The notes under the pieces are model-generated. The model had not been told where the DNA came from, made no database searches, and saw only the letters and a list, made by a program, of their open reading frames with translations. The translations under genes were made by a program, and so were the position numbers. From a virus, in IMG/VR virus record IMGVR_UViG_3300032893_000303, positions 1 to 20,581 of that record: a DNA stretch of 20,581 nt, one strand, 5' to 3'. Shown one piece after another: positions 1,946 to 15,667 of this stretch; position 1 is the first letter of the stretch; each line of letters begins with the position of its first letter.

Positions 1946-3274
1946 TTACGGTTTAACTTTCAGGATTTTGATAGCGTCGTAATTGGTTACCGCGCCACCT
2001 ACACGTTTGGTCGTGTAGAACTGAATGTAAGGTTTGTTTGTAACATCATCACGGATTACTCGGAATCCGAAACGATCAACGATGGTGTACGCCAGTTTGA
2101 AGTTTGCGTATACAACTGACAAAGCAGAGTTGGTTACTGCTTGCATGTCATCCATAAAGTTCACTTCTTTGCCGAGCAGAACCATTTGATCCATTTCGTT
2201 AATGAAGCGGCTTTGGAAAACGTATTGGCCGTAGCTGTCTTTCAGGCTGATCAACGCACCGAAGGTTGCGCGTTTCATGCCCCAAGAAGCGCCGTTTTGG
2301 TATGGCTCTTTCAACAACCACTGTACAGATTTCAGGTCGTCTGCTTTATCAAGCAAGCCTGAAGTACCAGTAGATGTGAACTGGCCAATTGCGCCGCGCT
2401 GGTAAGTATCTGCGGCAGCAGCAGCGGGATAGCTCAGGAAGCCGATAGGCGCTAAACCACCAACGCCAGACACGAAGGCGGTGTTCTCAATACGTGACAT
2501 TTTGTCAACGATCTTGGCAGACAACCAGCTCTCCACATCGAAGCCAGCGTCGTCAAGCATTTTTTGCGTGGCGATAGGCATTGCGAACTGTTCTTGAACT
2601 GGGATTGTGATTTTACCAATATCAGGAGTTGCACTCTTAGTGCGTGATGCAACTTCACCAACCCATCCACCGCTCGTTGCTTCGTTGTCATCAATGATGA
2701 CTTCCAAAGAATCGCCAGCTACCGAAGTAACATTGGCCAAACGGCGCAATGGTGATGTTTCGAAAATGCGCGTTGCCATGAAATTAGCGCGTTGTGGGCG
2801 AATCCAGTAGCCGCCACCGGGGTTAGAACCTGCTACCAAGTCCTTAACGATCATTGGCATGTTGCCGTCATCGCCTTCAATGTAGACTTTTTCAGCGATA
2901 GAACGGCAAACGTCATCAAGCAGATTCACATCCACCGCTTGACCGCGACGTGCATAGCGGCTGAATTGCTTGCGGTATTGTTTGTCCTGCTCGGACATTT
3001 CGTTTACATCGCCAGAAGTACCAGCACCGCCAGTGCGCGCCAGTTTCTTTTCCATCAATTTAATAGTGGTTTCCATTTCGGCTACTTTCGCAGCAGACTC
3101 CTGTTTCATTGCTTGAACAGCAGCCATGCCGTCAGTTGCGTCCTTGATAGCCTTGTCAATTGCAGCCTTGTCGATCGCATTGATTTTGGTTTCAAGTTCA
3201 CCGGCTTTGCTTTGAATCGCTTTTACAGCATCCAAAACTTTGTCAACATTTTGACCTAATTCTTTAACGTCCAT
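1946..3274 (-). CDS. Major capsid protein, HK97 gp5 fold
   Basis: This 442-residue protein is the main shell subunit. Residues 1-80 are a lysine/alanine/glutamate-rich coiled coil, the delta domain that acts as internal scaffold and is removed by the prohead protease. After a Gly-rich hinge (about 82-88) comes the N-arm (SEQDKQYRKQFSRYARRGQ, about 94-112). The E-loop/P-domain region shows the family hallmark GGWVGEVASR at about 202-211, then ITIPVQEQFAMPIATQKMLDD. The C-terminal A-domain ends in GGAVTNYDAIKILK. The length fits delta-domain-containing members. It lies 12 nt downstream of the protease gene and has a strong AGGAG site, as expected for the most abundant virion protein. Confidence 0.95.
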   Translation of the reverse strand: MDVKELGQNVDKVLDAVKAIQSKAGELETKINAIDKAAIDKAIKDATDGMAAVQAMKQESAAKVAEMETTIKLMEKKLARTGGAGTSGDVNEMSEQDKQYRKQFSRYARRGQAVDVNLLDDVCRSIAEKVYIEGDDGNMPMIVKDLVAGSNPGGGYWIRPQRANFMATRIFETSPLRRLANVTSVAGDSLEVIIDDNEATSGGWVGEVASRTKSATPDIGKITIPVQEQFAMPIATQKMLDDAGFDVESWLSAKIVDKMSRIENTAFVSGVGGLAPIGFLSYPAAAAADTYQRGAIGQFTSTGTSGLLDKADDLKSVQWLLKEPYQNGASWGMKRATFGALISLKDSYGQYVFQSRFINEMDQMVLLGKEVNFMDDMQAVTNSALSVVYANFKLAYTIVDRFGFRVIRDDVTNKPYIQFYTTKRVGGAVTNYDAIKILKVKP

Positions 3275-3286
3275 CGTAAACTCCTA

Positions 3287-4132
3287 TCAAGTGTTACGCA
3301 TAATTTCGTTTAACGCGAGTTCAGTACGAAACGCCCTGAGCTTGCTACCAATGGCAGCCAATTCTGCCTCTTGACCCTTATGCTCATCGTCACGATGGCC
3401 TTCTGGGTTCTCCTCTGTTGCGTCACGCATTTCGGAGCTTTTAATCAATGAAATCAGTTTTTTTCGTGCTTTCTGACTGAATCCACCCAACTTCAGTAAG
3501 TTTTCCACATCTGCAATCGTTTTGCAAGTATCTACAACACTTCCGCTGATTCGAACGGCTAACTGGTGGTCGTTAGAATCAAGCGCCGTTTTGACTGCAA
3601 GAATTTGTGCTTCTGGATTCATCGGTTCAGTTACTGGTGAAATTTCCCAGAGGTTCAGATTTTTTATGTAGCGGATCATTGATCCGTCGTCATTTTCTTT
3701 GTACTCGAAATCATCCATGGACGGTATCGAAAAACCAATACTCATGTCACTGATCACACCCTGCTTGGCGAGAGAGTAAACAAACTCCCCTTTATGTGAT
3801 GGTGTCAGATTGATTTCACCACGTACAAAAAGACCTTTGGAGTCCTCTTTGCAGAATTCGATTGGGTACCCACCGATCATATCCTTTGAATTGTGCTGCC
3901 AGAACATGCGAATAGGGCGGTTTGCCTTGCGGTGGTCGGCTAGCGTTTTGGTAAAGGCTCCCGGGAGGATAACATCGTCGCCACGATCAAGATCGAACGT
4001 AGCACCGTAACCTTCAATTATCCCAACTGGAACGCCGTTGCGCTCCTCGGTTTTGACTTCAGTCGTTTTGAATTCAACAACTTTCGTTTCCATTTTGGCC
4101 TTTGGTGCCACCGCTTGATTGCCTTTGGTCAT
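3287..4132 (-). CDS. Prohead protease, HK97 family (peptidase S78)
   Basis: This 281-residue protease processes the capsid delta domain inside the prohead. Strand GIIEGYGATFDLDRGDDVILPGAF (about 37-60) is the classic start of the fold; only part is quoted here as EGYGATFD. The probable catalytic histidine is H80 in MFWQHNSKDMIGGY, and the nucleophile serine is in SDMSIGFS (S131 most likely). An acidic residue near LWEISPVTEP (E164) could complete the triad, as in HK97 gp4. Residues after about 175 form a helical C-terminal region that is probably self-cleaved. It sits immediately upstream of the capsid gene, the usual order. The ATG is preceded by AGAGG. Confidence 0.93.
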   Translation of the reverse strand: MTKGNQAVAPKAKMETKVVEFKTTEVKTEERNGVPVGIIEGYGATFDLDRGDDVILPGAFTKTLADHRKANRPIRMFWQHNSKDMIGGYPIEFCKEDSKGLFVRGEINLTPSHKGEFVYSLAKQGVISDMSIGFSIPSMDDFEYKENDDGSMIRYIKNLNLWEISPVTEPMNPEAQILAVKTALDSNDHQLAVRISGSVVDTCKTIADVENLLKLGGFSQKARKKLISLIKSSEMRDATEENPEGHRDDEHKGQEAELAAIGSKLRAFRTELALNEIMRNT

Positions 4133-4158
4133 AACTGCCTCTGCAAATTTTTTCCAGT

Positions 4159-5676
4159 TTAGCTTACTTGAAGAATTGCGTCAGTAACATTTAATGAAAT
4201 GCCACCGTTAGTGGCTTGGATTTTCAACTCAAGCACGTCGTTAGTAGTCAAAGTGGTTTCACAGCACATCGCATTGGCGCTGGTTGTGCCTGTAGGAACA
4301 GAGTCAGTGACTTGGTGGTTAACCGGCAGACCGGCCACTATGGTTCCGGTTCCGCTTGCGCCGGGATCGCTTACCATGGTGTAGTCAAAAGTTGTATTGC
4401 CGCCACCGATATTAGTAATTACAAAAGTACCGTTATATTGAGAAGGAGTTGCGCCTGAAATAGTTACTGTACAACCATTAGTCAAGCCGTTAAACGCGCT
4501 TGGTAAAACTGCATGTGCGGTGACTGTCGTACTGGTCAATGTAACTCCAGACATCAAGTACGTTTCGGAAAGCAGAACCCCGTTTTTATGGATACCTATT
4601 TTTGTAGTCTGCGTTGAACCAGTTGCGTTTGAAATTGAAGCGGTTGCAGAAATTCTTCCACGGTAAGTCTCATTCCCAACGTATTTTAATTGCAGGGAGC
4701 CGTTTCTTGTAAATCTGGTTGCAAGTGGTGACAAAACATCCTGCGAATTGCCGGCGATTGAATACCAAGTATTTGCTGTTGTTATTGTTGTATTCGCTGT
4801 GTTGGAAGCCATGGTTAATGAGCCGCCAACGGAAGTATTTGCTATCCCAGAATTTGCAATAAAAGTGAATGTTACTGAGGTATTTGTAACTCCCGTTATA
4901 AATGTTGCTCCCGGCGCGGCTGTGCAATTAGTAATACTTCCCGTCGTAGCGCCGGAATCTCCATTAGTTACGTTGAACATTGCAAAACTAGCGGCGTTAT
5001 AACAATTGCTAATTCTTAAGTTAGAAAATGTGCCTTGAATATCGTATTGAACAGCTGCGTTTAAACCAGAACGAACTCCATCAAATACTAAATTGCCACC
5101 AGAACCAGTAAATTGTATGGAGCCATTCGTGAAAAAATTTATACACCTGTCTACAAAATACACTTCACCGGCAGATCCACTAAAAGAAATTGTACCCATG
5201 CTTCCTGAGCTTGCGAAAAAACACTCAGAAAAAATGAGCACGGAGGGCTGGTCTGCACTAATTATCGTCCCAGAAGTCCCTAATGAAGACAGCGTAATAG
5301 ATCGAACAGTAAAGGCTTGTGAAATTGCATTACTGTTTAATAATGCAACTGCTCCAGCGGAATTATCCAATGAAAGCCAGTCAGTATTATACGATCCTGA
5401 TAAGCCAACGATCGTTACGTTTGTTCCATAGTAAATAGGCGAAGTAACCGTTACCGCGCCGTTAATAACCCATATTGTGTTGTCAGGAAGTGTTATTTTT
5501 CCTGCTACTGCGTCCGGAAATTTATTCCCGTTTATATTTCCGGGCTTTACTACAGTCCAGTTATCGTATTTCAACTCAACAGAGTCTATGAAATCGCGCA
5601 TATTCATCGGCGTAATTAATCCGGTGACGTTATCTGGAAACGCCGCGTCGAGTTGGTCTTTGTTAAGTTGCGTCAT
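4159..5676 (-). CDS. Beta-rich spike or fibre protein, candidate head spike
   Basis: This 505-residue appendage protein has a short N-terminal motif (MTQLNKDQLDAAFP, then TPMNMRDFIDS at about 22-32) of the type that anchors phage fibres. Residues 60-290 repeat short strands rich in S, T, N and G, with TITNC-like turns resembling a right-handed beta-helix. Residues about 390-450 contain a recognisable insert module (VTISGATPSQYNGTF, then FDYTMVSDPGASGTGTI) that recurs in unrelated phage fibres. Its start lies 1 nt after the spike-base stop (TAAAATG), with hardly any ribosome site, so translation is probably coupled. Pairing with a GTA-like spike base makes a head spike fibre plausible; a tail spike is the alternative. 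No catalytic residues can be assigned. Confidence 0.7.
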   Translation of the reverse strand: MTQLNKDQLDAAFPDNVTGLITPMNMRDFIDSVELKYDNWTVVKPGNINGNKFPDAVAGKITLPDNTIWVINGAVTVTSPIYYGTNVTIVGLSGSYNTDWLSLDNSAGAVALLNSNAISQAFTVRSITLSSLGTSGTIISADQPSVLIFSECFFASSGSMGTISFSGSAGEVYFVDRCINFFTNGSIQFTGSGGNLVFDGVRSGLNAAVQYDIQGTFSNLRISNCYNAASFAMFNVTNGDSGATTGSITNCTAAPGATFITGVTNTSVTFTFIANSGIANTSVGGSLTMASNTANTTITTANTWYSIAGNSQDVLSPLATRFTRNGSLQLKYVGNETYRGRISATASISNATGSTQTTKIGIHKNGVLLSETYLMSGVTLTSTTVTAHAVLPSAFNGLTNGCTVTISGATPSQYNGTFVITNIGGGNTTFDYTMVSDPGASGTGTIVAGLPVNHQVTDSVPTGTTSANAMCCETTLTTNDVLELKIQATNGGISLNVTDAILQVS

Positions 5677-5677
5677 T

Positions 5678-5944
5678 TTAGTTGTAGAGCGCAGTTAATC
5701 CGGTTGCGGTTGTTCCCGTTGCTTTTACTCTGGTGACGACATACGGGTTGAATCCAACTGAAAGAGCAATGGTTACGCTGTTTCCATAGTAATCAATTAC
5801 CGCAGCGTTTCCTGCAACTTGGCAGTTGATACCAAAACATGCACCATTAGGAAGGTCTGAGCCGTCGGCGGGTGTGATCGGAGCCAGTTGTCTAAACGGC
5901 GCTTGAAGCGAAGGAACAACTTTTGTTATGTCTACGTTTGGCAT
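5678..5944 (-). CDS. Spike base protein, RcGTA Rcc01079-like
   Basis: This is an 88-residue beta-rich protein. The central APITPADGSDLPNG (about 21-34) and the C-terminal VTRVKATGTTATGLTALYN (about 70-88) match the signature of the small spike-base family named after Rcc01079 of the Rhodobacter gene transfer agent, where the protein sits at capsid vertices and carries the head-spike fibre. Here it lies directly upstream of a large beta-rich fibre gene and between a minor head protein and the protease, which fits a head location. It has a good AGGAAG ribosome site. The family call is from motif memory; the vertex location is inference. Confidence 0.75.
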   Translation of the reverse strand: MPNVDITKVVPSLQAPFRQLAPITPADGSDLPNGACFGINCQVAGNAAVIDYYGNSVTIALSVGFNPYVVTRVKATGTTATGLTALYN

Positions 5945-5993
5945 CTTGGCTTCCTATTGGTTACAGACGAAGTGAGTGTACCAGAGTTTTTTT

Positions 5994-6929
5994 TCATCCA
6001 CCAACTGAAAAACCTGTGTCATCTTCGGCTGTTACCGTTCTGAGAGTTTCACCTTCAAAAGAGTATTCAGCGGTGCATCGGCAGTTGATCGTATTTCCGG
6101 GGCTTGCTCCTAATGAAGTGTCCCCGGGATTAAGCATTAATTCCCCATCGACCACGAAAGCATCATCAATGGATTGCTGCTGGCCATCTGCCTCGCGGTG
6201 CGCTTCCCGTACCTTGTCATCACCCACAGTCCACCATGTTTTTATGGCTGCCACGTCGGTTAAGCCTTGCTGCCTTGCTTCGTTCAGGTGGTCGTCAATC
6301 GTCTCTGCTTCGATCAGTTTTCCCGATTCTGCGCCATCCTGAGTGGCATCTGTGGCGATCATGTCTCCTCGGTAAAGATTTGAGTCCTCGAAGTGCTGTC
6401 CTGCCATTTCTGCTATCTGGTGCTGACTTGGGTAATTATCCATCAAGGCTGCAGCTCCTAGAGCCGCAGCAATAGACTCTCCGATACGCACTCGGTTTGT
6501 ATTGGTGATTTGGTCTGTTTTTTCAGGAACAACTTCATTGACATACTCATGGATGTTGGCATCCTTTTTGACCTTTATTTGCTGAATCTGGTTTTCAACT
6601 GTTGTTTTCTTTTGAACAGCTAGAAGGTATAGAGCAGCAATTAACGGGTCTTTGTCATCCTTTGAGTTCTTGGATAATTGGTCAGTTATGTCAGAGCTGA
6701 AAACTGTACTGGCTCGACGGTAAGCGTTCCTTAGTATCCCTGAAATGTCATCACGATACGAGTCAGGATTAACTGCATGTCCTGTAGCAGAATAAACATT
6801 AGTAAGGTCTTTTGCTATATTGCGAAACATCGTCCGTAATTTTGCTGCAACCGGCTGTTCAAGTTTCAGCTTTACTGCCAAGTCCTCGGCAATTTTGGTA
6901 GCCCTACTTTCCTCTGTAGATGTGGCCAT
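5994..6929 (-). CDS. Minor head / head morphogenesis protein (Mu gpF-like C-terminal domain)
   Basis: This 311-residue protein has a helical N-terminal half (about 1-210). The C-terminal domain (about 228-290) carries the conserved Mu gpF / SPP1 gp7 pattern: KTWWTVGDDKVREAHREADGQ, then LMLNPGD, then the cysteine motif INCRCTAEY at about 281-289. Such proteins bind the portal and a few copies enter the virion. In most phages they follow the portal gene, but here spike and fibre genes separate it from the protease. The ribosome site is weak: AAGGT lies about 13 nt before the ATG. The assignment to the family is firm; the precise role (portal-bound ejection or assembly factor) is general family knowledge. 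Confidence 0.88.
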   Translation of the reverse strand: MATSTEESRATKIAEDLAVKLKLEQPVAAKLRTMFRNIAKDLTNVYSATGHAVNPDSYRDDISGILRNAYRRASTVFSSDITDQLSKNSKDDKDPLIAALYLLAVQKKTTVENQIQQIKVKKDANIHEYVNEVVPEKTDQITNTNRVRIGESIAAALGAAALMDNYPSQHQIAEMAGQHFEDSNLYRGDMIATDATQDGAESGKLIEAETIDDHLNEARQQGLTDVAAIKTWWTVGDDKVREAHREADGQQQSIDDAFVVDGELMLNPGDTSLGASPGNTINCRCTAEYSFEGETLRTVTAEDDTGFSVGG

Positions 6930-6952
6930 TGATTTCAGGCTACCTTGAATCG

Positions 6953-7288
6953 TTACTTTGGAGCGTCAGCGGTGACTGATTTTACTTCATCAACAACCTG
7001 CTTTGCAGCTTCGATACGGTCACTCAGGGGCTTGCTATCATCAACTACTACTTGCGTAGTCGTAGCAATCGTTTCAGCTTCCTTGATCGCGGCAACTGCC
7101 GCAGTGTTGCCGACCGCACCGGCAATAGCCTCTGCCTCTGGTGCGTATTTAACGATCCCATCAATCAGCTTGTGAAATGCTTTGATAGCATCGTCCTTTG
7201 CAGCTGAGGCGCTTGGTTCGTGAATCAATTCAAGAACCTTGCGCCAGCCTACCGCTAAATCATTTTTTACAGTATCAGGTAAAGACAT
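6953..7288 (-). CDS. Small helical protein of unknown function in the head module
   Basis: This 111-residue protein is almost entirely alpha-helical by composition (Ala, Val, Lys, Asp, Glu). A region at about 50-75 is rich in Ala and beta-branched residues (EAEAIAGAVGNTAAVAAI) and could be a weak amphipathic or membrane-associated helix. I do not recognise the family. It has a strong AGGAG site, and its leader overlaps the end of the fibre C-terminus remnant, so the upstream rearrangement stops exactly at this gene. It lies 23 nt before the minor head gene and is probably co-expressed with it. A scaffold or internal head role is possible but unsupported by motif. Confidence 0.65.
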   Translation of the reverse strand: MSLPDTVKNDLAVGWRKVLELIHEPSASAAKDDAIKAFHKLIDGIVKYAPEAEAIAGAVGNTAAVAAIKEAETIATTTQVVVDDSKPLSDRIEAAKQVVDEVKSVTADAPK

Positions 7289-7304
7289 AACGTTCTCCTA
7301 AGTA

Positions 7305-7417
7305 AGGTGCCTGTGTGTAGTATATCACGCCACTCAATGCTGTCGAGTTTGTTGTCTGGCTTTGCGTGATGCAGAGCGCGTTACCAGCGATTGCCATCTG
7401 CACGCCGACTATAGATT
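7305..7417 (-). pseudogene. Out-of-frame remnant of a second fibre C-terminus
   Basis: Directly after the fibre stop, in the -1 frame, the minus strand reads SIVGVQMAIAGNALC, then SQTTNSTALSGVIYYTQAP. This parallels the true C-terminus of the fibre (LATAANALCVLGVAT, then TTNITINGFTAP): both have a basic/aliphatic strand, (A/G)NALC, T-rich spacing and a final aromatic strand ending in AP. It has no start codon or ribosome site of its own. The likeliest reading is a leftover of a tail tip replaced by recombination; a frameshift-accessible alternative end is less likely because no slippery heptamer in the right phase is visible. Confidence 0.6.
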
Positions 7418-10400
7418 TCAAGGCGCTGTAAACCCGTTGATAGTGATGTTTGTGGTGTTTGTTGCTACGCCGAGCACGCACAAGGCGTTTGCGGCTGTGG
7501 CAAGTTTTAGAGGTACGCTGAAGCTGATAACAGTGGGCGCGGCTGTATTGGCAGGCGCTGCCATTGATACTGCCGTACTGTTGGCAAATATCGCGGTATT
7601 ACCTGTGCCGCAGTTTGTGCCTGTGCCGTAGGTGAGCGTGAACTGGCCTGCTGTGCCGGTGCTTGATTGAGCCACGATGCTGCTGATGTACAGGAACAGT
7701 CCAGCACCCGGAGCGGCCTGGCATTGCGTGAGCGTTGTGCCAACAGCGTTAAGGCCGCATGTCCACGTTACCGGGCCTCCTTGGCGCGTGTAGAGGACGT
7801 GATCGAGGCCAGCTACCACGCTGCCGACCTGACCTGCGGTACCAACCGAGGCGCTTGCACTAGATTGTAATTGTGCGCCAGTCACAAAAACGTTTGACGG
7901 TGCTGTACCATTATTTGCAGCATCTAATGAAACTCCTCCATTACCAACAATACGAGCCGTCCAGTTGCCTGATTGTGCAACCGATGGCGTGTTGGTTACA
8001 GCAACCGGCGCTTGTGATCCTGCGCCTTGCGCTTTCACATCGTTGATCACTACGGGTGTTGCAGCGTAGTTCTCGACGGATGACATGCCAATTGTCCATG
8101 TTGTGGTACTGGCAGGCGCGCTGGTTCCATTTACCGCGCGGATTTGCAAATAGAGCGGCGTGTTTTCCTCAGGCAGGTTTACAACACGCGATGCACGCTG
8201 TGTGGTTTGAACAGTACCGGCAACTGATGCCACAAGCTGATCTGCAAGATATGCGGCACCATCATTGTTTGAAAGTATCGCCATGTGTCCGGGCGATGCG
8301 GTTGTGTTGATGGTTGCCGTTGTGGTGCCTGAGTTCCAACCCTTGCGCTGTGCGTCATAAAGCACGTTTGTCGCAGTGGTTGAGTTATAGGTCAGCTGGT
8401 AATAGTTCCAACCCGAAAGCGTACAGGTGCCTGAACCACTGGCAGGCCAACCGGCAACAGTGAGCGTTACGTTGTTGCCAGATACTGATGCGATTGTTGC
8501 CCGCATCGGTACTGCTGATGCGGAGATGTTCTGCACATTGTCAACATCAATGCCCTGCCCTACGTTTGCGGATGTAAATGGGTTGCTGGGGATTGTTACC
8601 GTGATTGATGTTGCGCTGTTGACAGTAGTCGAAAGGTTGTCACCAATTACATCGACCAGCTCAACAATAAAGTTGTTGTTGGCAATACGCTGCGAGAGCG
8701 TTGTCTGGATTCTGGCCAGCATTGAGCCAGTAAAAGACTGAGTAGAACGGATTACCGTTGCAGCGTTGGCCGTTGTGCCGGTAGTGATAACAAGGTTACC
8801 GCCGGATTGGCTGATTGCCTGTCCGCTGCCAGTTTGCAACAGTGTGAAAAAGTTTGTATCAACACCGCTTGCGATAACAGATGCAAAAGTGGATTTGAAA
8901 TACTTTTGTTGAATTGGTGTTACCGGGATGGCGGTGGTAGTCCTTGCGGCTGGCTGTAAGGTATTGCCGTTAGGTGAAAGCGCGACAACCAAAGCAGGGT
9001 CGGCGGCAACTGGTGCTGTAGATGCAGCCTTTACTGTTACGCCACGATATTTATATGTCGCATCCCGAATGTCTACATGCTGCTGACCAGTATCCCCTAG
9101 TGCCAAAGCTTTCACATTAAACGTCGGAGTGCCGCTCAGCGTAGACGCGCCGTTTAGCATGGCGATTCTAATTGGGGTATTGTTATCTGACGGATCAGAA
9201 AACGGCTGGGTTAATGCGTTACTGGCAGATGCAACAGGGCTGCCATCGACATATACCCACATCGCATCATCGCGCCATATAATCGTATAGCTGTGATAAT
9301 AACCGTCTGTTGGCATCGTTAGGTTCGACGACCACAGAAGAGTATCTGCTCCGTAGATTACTGCGCGCAATACCCCTCCGGTTGTTTCCTCAATTCCCAC
9401 ACCGTTTTTAATTGGGTTTGTTGTTGAATAAGCTGTACCTGCAGTTCCTCTTCCGTAGAATTTATAGACACCCGTTACCGTGGAAGCCTCGAACTGGATG
9501 GCAGCCGACAACTGAAGTTGATTCAAGCCGTACGCGACAAACGTAGGCTGTGACGAAATAGCTACTGCGTTATTAGCTGTTGTACCCGTAGACAATGATA
9601 GAGCCGCAGATGTCACGGATTGCGTGCCACCACCGGCAGTAACCGGTGTATTCCAGTTGTTTGTCGTGTCAAGACTTGTTCCGTCAAACGAATCCTTAAA
9701 CAAGGCGGTCGTCGGAGGCGCGACTTGTAAATTACCATCGGTTCCGGTTCCGGCGCTTACACCATTAGCTGATGTCAGAATGACTTGATTACTATTGGGC
9801 GATATTGCGATTACCGCAGACGGGTCTGTAGCGGCGGCGGCGGTACTTGCCGCTTTTACAGCCATTGTATTCGTTCCGTCCGTTATGCGATTAGCCCATG
9901 TGCCACTTTGGGTTGATGCAAACGTAGTGTTGCCAATAGAACCACCAGACTGGAATGGCGTACCTAGCGTAGTATTGATTGTGCCTAACGCTGTAATCTC
10001 GGTAGATTGGTTGGCAGATGTTGCAGCACCGGTTGGCAGCGATACAGTACCGGATATATTGCTGATATTCCACGTGCCTGATTGTGTGACCGGGAACGGG
10101 TTATCCGCCATCACGGTAGCGGTGGTTTGTGATGCTATCCATGTTACAGCAGCAGTTCCGCTTGCAACCGTAGCGCCGCGTAACCGGACTGCAGTCAGCC
10201 CGGCGCAATTAACTTGGCCGATGGTGTTTGCTGAAAAGCTGCTTGCGATACCGCCGGATGCTAAAGCTACGTAGGTTGTGGTGATCCAGTTGGAGCCATC
10301 GACAGTACCCTCGACCGTGAGGGTTCCAGTCCATGTGCCAGTCACCTGAAACGTAGCAGTGCCATACCCGTTGCCAGATATTTGCACAGATTGAGTGCTA

Positions 10401-11155
10401 GTAATACTGCCGGATGCTGTGGTCGGAGGTGTGTTCACATATAGCGCATTATTTGCAGATGCAATTACATTGCCGCTACCGTCAACTATTTGGGTTTTTG
10501 AACTGGCGCTACTAACCGTCCGCAAGTCACCGGATGTTGTTTGAGATATAGGGTTGCTGGTACCGGCACTATAAGTAGGTGCACTGGTTGTGGTCGCCAC
10601 CAAAGCTAAATTACCCTTTTCCCCGGTGGTACTGTTACCTTGGGCTAGTGCAAGGTTTGCTGTGTTAGTCACTATTTGGTCAAGGTTGCCGCCAGTTTCA
10701 AGCGCCAGTTTGCTACTGTTATTTGGCGAAATTGTTACTACCAAGGCGGCATCGCCCACTCCCGGTGCCGTGGAACCACCAACCACTTTGGCAACGTTTG
10801 CGGCACCGTCACCGATTTTGATAGGCCACGCGCCGCTTAATAGCGCGTTAGTCCCCTGATTTGCTATAACAGGCAGTGGGTTTGCGGAGCTGATACCGGT
10901 CAAATTACCCGCAACAGATATGCCGAGATAGGTAGCAGATGCCGGTACAGATGCGCCGGTACTGCCGACGCTCGGGTTTGAAGCGGTTATCGAACCTGTT
11001 ATAGGAATAGGCGACTGATCGCTGGCAATAACAACAGGCTCGCTGTTCGCCATCGTGGTCTGGCCGTTCGGATTGGAAGGCACAAAGGAAAATGCTGGTT
11101 CACATCCCGGAATTACGAGTGCAAAAATAATTAAATACTTCAGAAAGTTTTTCAT
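7418..11155 (-). CDS. Giant modular fibre / appendage protein with lectin-like domains and N-terminal signal peptide
   Basis: This 1245-residue protein is the largest in the window. Residues 1-23 look like a Sec signal: MKNFLK, a hydrophobic YLIIFALVIPG core, and a possible cleavage after AFS. The body is Ser/Thr/Ala/Gly-rich with repeated modules: KAASTA-x-DP-x-VxxxSPN units at about 122-148, 433-460 and 707-733, and QSGTW units at about 357, 416 and again near 1090. Residues about 484-680 look like a concanavalin/LamG-type jelly roll (FKDSFDGTSLDTTNNW, then WRDDAMWVYVDGSPVA), and about 750-1030 a second diverged one. The C-terminal 90 residues form a compact end module with cysteines (WTCGLNA, NALCV). 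A host-binding fibre is inferred; cleavage by signal peptidase is not expected for a virion protein. Confidence 0.75.
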   Translation of the reverse strand: MKNFLKYLIIFALVIPGCEPAFSFVPSNPNGQTTMANSEPVVIASDQSPIPITGSITASNPSVGSTGASVPASATYLGISVAGNLTGISSANPLPVIANQGTNALLSGAWPIKIGDGAANVAKVVGGSTAPGVGDAALVVTISPNNSSKLALETGGNLDQIVTNTANLALAQGNSTTGEKGNLALVATTTSAPTYSAGTSNPISQTTSGDLRTVSSASSKTQIVDGSGNVIASANNALYVNTPPTTASGSITSTQSVQISGNGYGTATFQVTGTWTGTLTVEGTVDGSNWITTTYVALASGGIASSFSANTIGQVNCAGLTAVRLRGATVASGTAAVTWIASQTTATVMADNPFPVTQSGTWNISNISGTVSLPTGAATSANQSTEITALGTINTTLGTPFQSGGSIGNTTFASTQSGTWANRITDGTNTMAVKAASTAAAATDPSAVIAISPNSNQVILTSANGVSAGTGTDGNLQVAPPTTALFKDSFDGTSLDTTNNWNTPVTAGGGTQSVTSAALSLSTGTTANNAVAISSQPTFVAYGLNQLQLSAAIQFEASTVTGVYKFYGRGTAGTAYSTTNPIKNGVGIEETTGGVLRAVIYGADTLLWSSNLTMPTDGYYHSYTIIWRDDAMWVYVDGSPVASASNALTQPFSDPSDNNTPIRIAMLNGASTLSGTPTFNVKALALGDTGQQHVDIRDATYKYRGVTVKAASTAPVAADPALVVALSPNGNTLQPAARTTTAIPVTPIQQKYFKSTFASVIASGVDTNFFTLLQTGSGQAISQSGGNLVITTGTTANAATVIRSTQSFTGSMLARIQTTLSQRIANNNFIVELVDVIGDNLSTTVNSATSITVTIPSNPFTSANVGQGIDVDNVQNISASAVPMRATIASVSGNNVTLTVAGWPASGSGTCTLSGWNYYQLTYNSTTATNVLYDAQRKGWNSGTTTATINTTASPGHMAILSNNDGAAYLADQLVASVAGTVQTTQRASRVVNLPEENTPLYLQIRAVNGTSAPASTTTWTIGMSSVENYAATPVVINDVKAQGAGSQAPVAVTNTPSVAQSGNWTARIVGNGGVSLDAANNGTAPSNVFVTGAQLQSSASASVGTAGQVGSVVAGLDHVLYTRQGGPVTWTCGLNAVGTTLTQCQAAPGAGLFLYISSIVAQSSTGTAGQFTLTYGTGTNCGTGNTAIFANSTAVSMAAPANTAAPTVISFSVPLKLATAANALCVLGVATNTTNITINGFTAP

Positions 11156-12343: not shown

Positions 12344-12588
12344 CACGCTGGCAGCAATTGGAGATATTGAGGGCAAGCACTATCCTCAACGATCGCAGCG
12401 GATATTGCCCCTACATTTACGTTCGGGGGATTAACCAAGGAAGTATTTGCAAACTCCAACGCCTTGCCACCGGAACAGTTATCGACCTCTGTATAGGTCA
12501 CGCCATTGTGAATAGTTACGCCGTTGTAGTGGCGACCGTCATGGCAAACAGGTACCGAAATATTAACAACTGGTTGAACTGGTGACAT
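12343..12588 (-). CDS. Small protein of unknown function upstream of the DUF5675 gene
   Basis: This 81-residue protein has a strong ribosome site (AGGAG, 6 nt before ATG) and a TGATG overlap with the next gene. The N-terminal VQPVVNISVPVCHDGRHYNG and YTEVDNCSGGKALEFAN suggest a compact beta fold with three cysteines. The C-terminus CPQYLQLLPA is hydrophobic. I do not recognise the family. Coupling to the DUF5675 gene suggests the two act together. It is the first gene downstream of the 26-bp tandem repeats, so it may head the transcript for the appendage genes. Confidence 0.65.
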   Translation of the reverse strand: MSPVQPVVNISVPVCHDGRHYNGVTIHNGVTYTEVDNCSGGKALEFANTSLVNPPNVNVGAISAAIVEDSACPQYLQLLPA

Positions 12589-12616
12589 AAAACTCTCCTG
12601 TGTGAGTTAATAAATA

Positions 12617-12668
12617 ATGAGCAGGCATGGTATCAAAAATCAATGAGCAGGCATGATATCAAAAATCA
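12617..12668. repeat. Two tandem 26-bp repeats in the lysis-gene gap
   Basis: Two head-to-tail units (12617-12642 and 12643-12668) differ at one base. Each has ATGAGCAGGCATG followed by (G/A)TATCAAAAATCA. The core TATCAA is the half-site also found in the two promoter operators at 14924 and 20014. The repeats lie in the 189-bp gap between the lytic transglycosylase gene and the small gene at 12588, so they may be a regulator-binding site for the genes downstream. The rest of the gap holds nothing I can support. Confidence 0.8.
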
Positions 12669-15289: not shown

Positions 15290-15667
15290 TCAACCGTCAC
15301 CCATCAAGTACTCTGGTACCGTTTGCCAAGTATACATTTTACTGGCTTCTTTGAATCCTAATACACGCGGTGCTCTGTTATCAAGCACAAAGTCACCATC
15401 GGTGGTAGATACGATCAGTACGGCATGAAGCTCTTTTGCGTCTGTAAGGCAAGTAGCTATGCCCAGACCGGCATCATTCACCCCGTTTTCCTTCAGCACG
15501 AGCATTTTGGTATAGGCGTAGTCCGAGCATACCCCTCCACCTGTTTTTCTCAAGTCATCGGCGTGTAACATCCCAACGACTCCCTGCTCTCGATAGGGAT
15601 AATGGTTTACCTCCTCGTTAACCACTTCAAGCAAGGCAAATAATTCAGCATTGAATTCTATTCGCAT
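15290..15667 (-). CDS. Bacterial transglutaminase-like cysteine peptidase (BTLCP-like)
   Basis: This 125-residue protein has the papain-like triad in the right order. C47 lies in GGGVCSDYAYTKMLVLKENG (about 43-62), H81 in ELHAVLIV, and D96 in FVLDNRAPRV. The surrounding features (C-x-DYA-x-K-x-x-x-LKENGV, then AxLxVxTxDGDFVLDN) match the BTLCP family, which in bacteria is often linked to LapG-type periplasmic proteolysis. Here there is no signal peptide, so the phage version is probably cytoplasmic. It overlaps the upstream gene by 10 nt and is fused by coupling to small membrane-protein genes. The substrate is unknown; deamidation or cross-linking activity is an alternative. Confidence 0.8.
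   Translation of the reverse strand: MRIEFNAELFALLEVVNEEVNHYPYREQGVVGMLHADDLRKTGGGVCSDYAYTKMLVLKENGVNDAGLGIATCLTDAKELHAVLIVSTTDGDFVLDNRAPRVLGFKEASKMYTWQTVPEYLMGDG

Follow-up and report, generated by a model that had tools for sequence, protein, structure and literature searches.

A probable scar of tip replacement behind a fibre-like gene in a viral genome fragment

Behind the stop codon of a gene encoding a fibre-like protein of 1245 aa, the -1 reading frame carries a short relic (7416-7305, minus strand) similar to the final two strands of the beta-sandwich tip domain with which that protein and its relatives end. The present tip of the fibre is complete and the fibre is a mosaic, and the relic is best explained (with a probability of roughly 0.6) as the scar of a tip replacement, a remnant of a YTQ-type 3' end left behind after recombination. 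The window, the whole stretch of DNA that was analysed, is 20,581 bases long and is identical in extent to its IMG/VR record, which is probably a fragment of the virus genome. All coordinates are those of the window.

Results

Position and reading frame of the relic

The fibre-like gene (7418-11155, minus strand) is complete, with a C-terminus of ...NALCVLGVATNTTNITINGFTAP followed by the stop TGA at 7420-7418. Past this stop, the -1 frame reads SIVGVQMAIAGNALCITQSQTTNSTALSGVIYYTQAP until 7305, where the final codon of ...KSIVGVQMAIAGNALCITQSQTTNSTALSGVIYYTQAP ends on the minus strand. A sequence-only reading of the same DNA had described this out-of-frame sequence, and it is present as described and beyond chance by the profiles and shuffles given below. 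Though that reading placed the relic at 7305-7481, only about 7416-7305 belongs to it; homology to the tip domain begins only past the fibre stop (about 7416), and 7481-7419 is mere fibre DNA read in another frame and lies outside every profile match. The open stretch of the frame itself extends from about 7598 to 7275. Rather than ending at the ribosome site of the next gene, as had been proposed, it runs on (7275-7304, minus strand) through the ribosome-binding site and four codons into that gene, to a TGA at 7277-7275. The relic had also been said to have no start of its own; a TTG at 7421 (in a TTGA overlap with the fibre stop) and an ATG at 7397 are in frame, while neither has a visible Shine-Dalgarno sequence before it, and to that extent the description holds.

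Of the strands in the modelled domain, the relic spans just the last two. In the HMM alignment, its AGNALC sits at the family position of the NA[LI]C strand; the final strand of the family ends at the stop as Y[TVA]Q-x or as G[FY]xAP, and the relic has a YYTQAP strand with no stop after it. The first six strands, including GTGTxCxTG, are absent from the relic frame, which makes the relic a remnant and not a member of the domain family; on present evidence it is untranslated.

Statistical support for the resemblance

Profiles were built, with the window left out, from 30 distinct family C-termini cut to their last 48 residues, and these ends were split by a regular expression into 18 of type A and 12 of type B, at least one B-like looking end (L029) falling into A. 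The relic scored 14.4 (A), 16.2 (B), and 16.8 bits (AB), and in a six-frame scan of the window it was the best match after the fibre itself (E = 0.0069, 0.0011, and 0.0017 for A, B, and AB, respectively). Its score was reached by one in 5000 residue shuffles for profile A and by none in 5000 for B and for AB, and dinucleotide-preserving shuffles of the DNA, taking the best of three frames, never reached it (0 of 3000 for each profile). When GNALC was held fixed, 32 (A), 116 (B), and 50 (AB) of 5000 shuffles succeeded, so that much of the signal comes from the NALC word, and the support beyond GNALC is real but modest.

In pairwise comparisons, the relic was closest to an Acidobacteria YTQF-type end (L059, z = 6.7); it gave z = 6.4 to L048, 5.3 to the fibre's own end, and 5.2 to the Synechococcus phage Ssp-JY42. 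Calling the relic a close parallel of the fibre end, as the sequence-only reading did, has a basis in the z of 5.3 but is generous, given the higher value for the YTQF-type end. Because L048 has an A-type end and the piece is so short, the assignment of the relic to the YTQ type is not firm. Several loci are near-copies or lie on the same contig (L004/L015, L005/L014, L008/L016, L009/L022, L020/L021, L031/L032, L036/L037, and L044/L045), and locus counts therefore overstate independence; the profiles took distinct ends only.

The fibre, its tip domain, and its mosaic build

The name fibre is presumptive, since the 1245-aa protein has no PHROG family and its Pfam domain is borderline only. That match, to Glyco_hydro_16 at residues 613-670 (~9319-9146, minus strand; 22.4 against a cut-off of 22 bits), is possibly a concanavalin-like binding domain and not an enzyme. 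The A-type tip domain at the C-terminus (7421-7804, minus strand) is supported by the 33-row alignment A2, AlphaFold, and the search of the window's own record given below, and is modelled as an eight-stranded beta sandwich (pLDDT 82.8, pTM 0.77) with strands from E12-20 to the last two, E107-112 and E118-127. A2 shows invariant residues within GTGTxCxTG, and NALC keeps its A and C in every row. The end of the fibre is ordinary (GFTAP at the stop); among relatives whose end is covered, those of its type finish likewise, for example with NAICVRPSAATAFGATITGFIAP at the stop.

The domain that the relic resembles ends the fibre and its relatives in 36 viral loci; these were retrieved with an alignment, and a search with the last 170 residues of the fibre retrieved nine. 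The search of the window's own record matched the fibre's tip domain at E = 2.7e-32. Of 14 proteins, 12 match the fibre at E <= 1e-3 with composition statistics on; the exceptions, L014 and L058, both match with these statistics off, and L014 also by tblastn. Among predicted viral structures, Foldseek returned 55 proteins at E <= 0.001, mostly unnamed, with a few annotated as virion structural protein, whereas the tip domain had no Foldseek match in the PDB at E <= 0.001. By sequence the PDB gave chance-level matches only; one of them, chain 4il7 (E = 0.14), which we take to be an STIV protein, was absent on profile search. No match to the last 170 residues was found by tblastn in phage records, and genome contigs searched with the fibre end gave 254 pattern-matching stretches, none of them confirmed.

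Fibre residues 734-1053 resemble a protein of the Microcystis phage Mae-JY24 (44%) that bears a different tip (ATGYTAP at the stop), and residues 543-729 match another locus (L001). The neck and tip match elsewhere, residues 1069-1245 to L022 and L024 and residues 1089-1245 to L015 and L016. As the body matches one phage and the neck plus tip match others, the fibre is a mosaic, and the fibre body appears to have received a module with its own stop between residues 1053 and ~1089 (window ~7999-7891). This mosaicism supports the earlier suggestion that the fibre C-terminus is a swap site. The G+C of the end domain is high for the fibre gene, a level reached in 4 of 113 fibre windows, which is a weak hint of foreign origin.

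The N-terminus of the fibre-like protein, MKNFLKYLIIFALVIPGCEPAFS, resembles an export or lipoprotein signal, which is odd for a tail fibre. Signal-like N-termini also occur on the small tip-domain proteins L019, L025, L059, and that of Ssp-JY42, and for this reason the tip-domain family may comprise exported or cell-surface proteins.

Relatives with YTQ-type ends

A loose pattern, NALC[..]T...YTQ, retrieved 2 viral and 20 genomic loci, of which 3 of 22 proved to be family members; both viral loci were non-members and all three members were genomic. These three (L056, L058, and L059), on contigs labelled Acidobacteriia, Acidobacteria, and Bryobacterales, end in NALCVTNSA...YTQF directly at the stop and have a GTGT/S..C strand before it, a strand that formed no part of the search pattern. 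The relic aligns with their C-termini at NALC and at the final YTQ strand, a closeness that is partly built in, as they were fetched by a pattern derived from the relic. The tip domain of Ssp-JY42, which ends in YSQR at the stop, was found through L059 and independently of that pattern. L059 (186 aa) and the Ssp-JY42 protein (138 aa) are stand-alone tip-domain genes, both with an export-signal-like start, and in Ssp-JY42 two genes separate the tip-domain gene from a gene annotated as fiber protein. Of 297 genomes drawn from the phylum of L059's genome, two had a match, one of them L059's own.

Relic-type C-termini in frame, which the sequence-only reading had expected in relatives, thus exist in the form of the three YTQF ends, while an end in exactly YYTQAP was not found. 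The exact-type pattern NALC...YTQAP had no occurrence in viral contigs, tblastn of the relic against 50,697 phage records returned nothing, and the 68-aa relic frame gave 48 pattern-matching stretches in viral contigs, with none confirmed as a relative. A comparable relic behind the stop was seen at none of the 36 other closed family ends, and none of the 81 sequences searched held two copies of the domain (57 held one, 24 none). The searches found no relative with the same relic, and none that combined the same body with a YTQ tip.

The next gene and other features of the window

The gene that follows the relic (6953-7288, minus strand; 111 aa) has its own ribosome-binding site (GGAGAACGTTATG); its product matches no family at a useful E, and no viral relative of it was found. 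Inside the relic, 31 bases ahead of the ATG of this gene, lies a promoter-like sequence (TCGACA-16-TATACT with an extended -10; 7319-7346, minus strand). One such site was found in the scanned region against 0.7 expected by chance, and it could be a chance occurrence. The relic may still be kept because it leads into the 111-aa gene.

The gene order over 1946-11155 (minus strand) is unusual, with the fibre, the 111-aa gene, a MuF-type gene, an 88-aa gene, and a second fibre-like gene (4159-5676) just ahead of the prohead protease and the major capsid gene; the 88-aa gene resembles phrog_12296 (tail fiber). Elsewhere in the window are a small protein of the Peptidase_C93 family (bacterial transglutaminase-like; 15290-15667, minus strand; E = 9.8e-17) and, between the genes at 12588 and 12778, two tandem 26-base copies that are 85% alike (12609-12660).

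Discussion

A tip replacement and its alternatives

If the relic is the scar of a tip replacement, 7416-7305 would be what is left, untranslated, of a YTQ-type tip-domain reading frame at its 3' end. Recombination would have imported the present neck-plus-tip module (~residues 1069-1245) together with its own stop, and the right-hand junction would have fallen at or just past that incoming stop, within the coding sequence of the old tip. The old tip would have lost its first six strands to the replacement and kept its last two, out of frame, ahead of the next ribosome-binding site. A junction at this place would leave such a piece, starting right behind the fibre stop and lacking strands one to six. 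Since the earlier state is seen in no relative, we infer the replacement step itself, and likewise the direction of the swap and the silence of the remnant; the old tip likely belonged to this fibre. The earlier proposal of a second tip C-terminus left by replacement therefore holds in so far as the relic is a domain-end remnant, by the profiles and by L056, L058, and L059; that it was the fibre's own earlier tip is likely rather than certain, because a stand-alone tip-domain gene nearby could leave the same scar.

Such a neighbour is the main rival to the tip-replacement scar, if a fairly unlikely one: the relic would be the surviving 3' end of a small, separate tip-domain gene between the fibre and the 111-aa gene, its first two thirds deleted, and the fibre tip would never have been swapped here. 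Small stand-alone genes of this kind exist (L059, Ssp-JY42), but the arrangement that this requires, an A-tip fibre with a YTQ gene behind it, was not seen, nor was a double domain in the 81 sequences. That the relic instead arose when the 3' end of the fibre was duplicated in tandem, and later diverged, is very improbable; NALC and TTN/AP words are common to both ends (z = 5.3), yet the region holds no direct DNA repeat of more than 15 bases, the DNA of the relic aligns poorly with that of the fibre end, and the relic is nearer to another organism's YTQF end. Own-end duplication was rejected on these grounds, and the lack of a long repeat and the poor DNA alignment argue against a recent copy in particular. 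A chance resemblance deserves equally little credence: although only about 26-28 residues align and 32-116 of 5000 shuffles suffice once GNALC is fixed, free residue shuffles (0-1 of 5000) and DNA shuffles (0 of 3000) do not, and the relic is the best non-fibre match in the six frames of the window, directly behind a gene with that very domain end.

It is also improbable that the relic is expressed, whether by a -1 frameshift fusing it to the fibre, a joining that the sequence-only reading had allowed for, or by reinitiation at TTGA. The -1 frame is open over the stop region, the TTG overlaps the fibre stop, and phages are known to make C-terminal Ig-like domains by frameshifting (PMC5009743). 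However, frame 0 contains no X XXY YYZ heptamer over 7610-7418, and the RNA around the fibre stop, folded without pseudoknots, is no more stable than shuffles (z = 0.20; 111 of 200 fold equally well). The two candidate starts have no visible Shine-Dalgarno sequence, two strands alone should not, going by the model, build a sandwich, and the arrangement occurs at none of the 36 other closed ends. The proline-stop CCU_UGA at the fibre end is reminiscent of the +1 sites CCC_UGA described for Listeria phages in PMC5009743, but it would serve a +1 slip, which stops after 12 codons and misses the relic. Frameshift expression was rejected for want of a heptamer, a stable RNA structure, and a conserved arrangement, and the sequence around the relic suggests that it is probably silent. 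Least credible of all is a reserve tip end, made to replace or to follow the present one by a rare deletion between the two NALC sites (~107 bases apart) or by a rare -1 slip; were it so, single particles or descendants would carry another tip.

Mosaicism of fibre ends is usually inferred by comparison between genomes. A scar of tip replacement would log a past swap within one genome, recording its right-hand junction (the stop of the incoming tip) and giving a hint of the earlier tip. The analysis further points to a phage tip domain that has been little described, the NALC / GTGTNCGTG sandwich, found on long fibre-like ends and as small proteins with export-signal-like N-termini. No paper on this remnant was found in the literature searched.

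Comparison with known systems

Invertible fibre tips of the Mu G and P1 C type have inverted repeats and an invertase. No inverted repeats were found in 7200-7800 or, window-wide, near the fibre end, no invertase was found among the window proteins scanned (20.6-kb fragment), and the relic lies on the same strand as the fibre; within this fragment, an invertible tip was rejected on this basis. The template of a diversity-generating retroelement was likewise rejected, with the longest direct repeats in 7200-7800 at 14-15 nt and a poor DNA alignment; among 20 window frames scanned with Pfam in this 20.6-kb fragment, there was no reverse transcriptase.

The relic shares with the Ig-like extensions made by frameshifting an out-of-frame, C-terminal beta-sandwich piece behind a structural gene (PMC5009743), but it consists of two strands and not a whole domain, and it is without a shift site or a supporting RNA structure. 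That review reports the suggestion that non-homologous domain movement lands some Ig-like copies out of frame. With the NALC...YTQF ends of L056, L058, and L059 and with the end of Ssp-JY42, the relic has in common the NALC strand, a serine/threonine-rich turn, and a final V.YTQ-like strand; it differs from the NALC...YTQF family in the missing first six strands, in a turn that is 2-3 residues longer, and in having no stop at the usual place. Closest in kind is the exchange of fibre 3' ends in phages and tailocins such as carotovoricin, for which PMC13195805 describes a conserved N-terminal part, exchangeable C-terminal parts, and recombination at the fibre locus, as in the window. The window differs in that a single record supplies the evidence, one leftover of ~110 bases lying out of frame, and in that neither a flanking homology block nor an invertase was found in it. 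Exchange of fibre ends is well known, and the remnant adds a further instance to a known kind.
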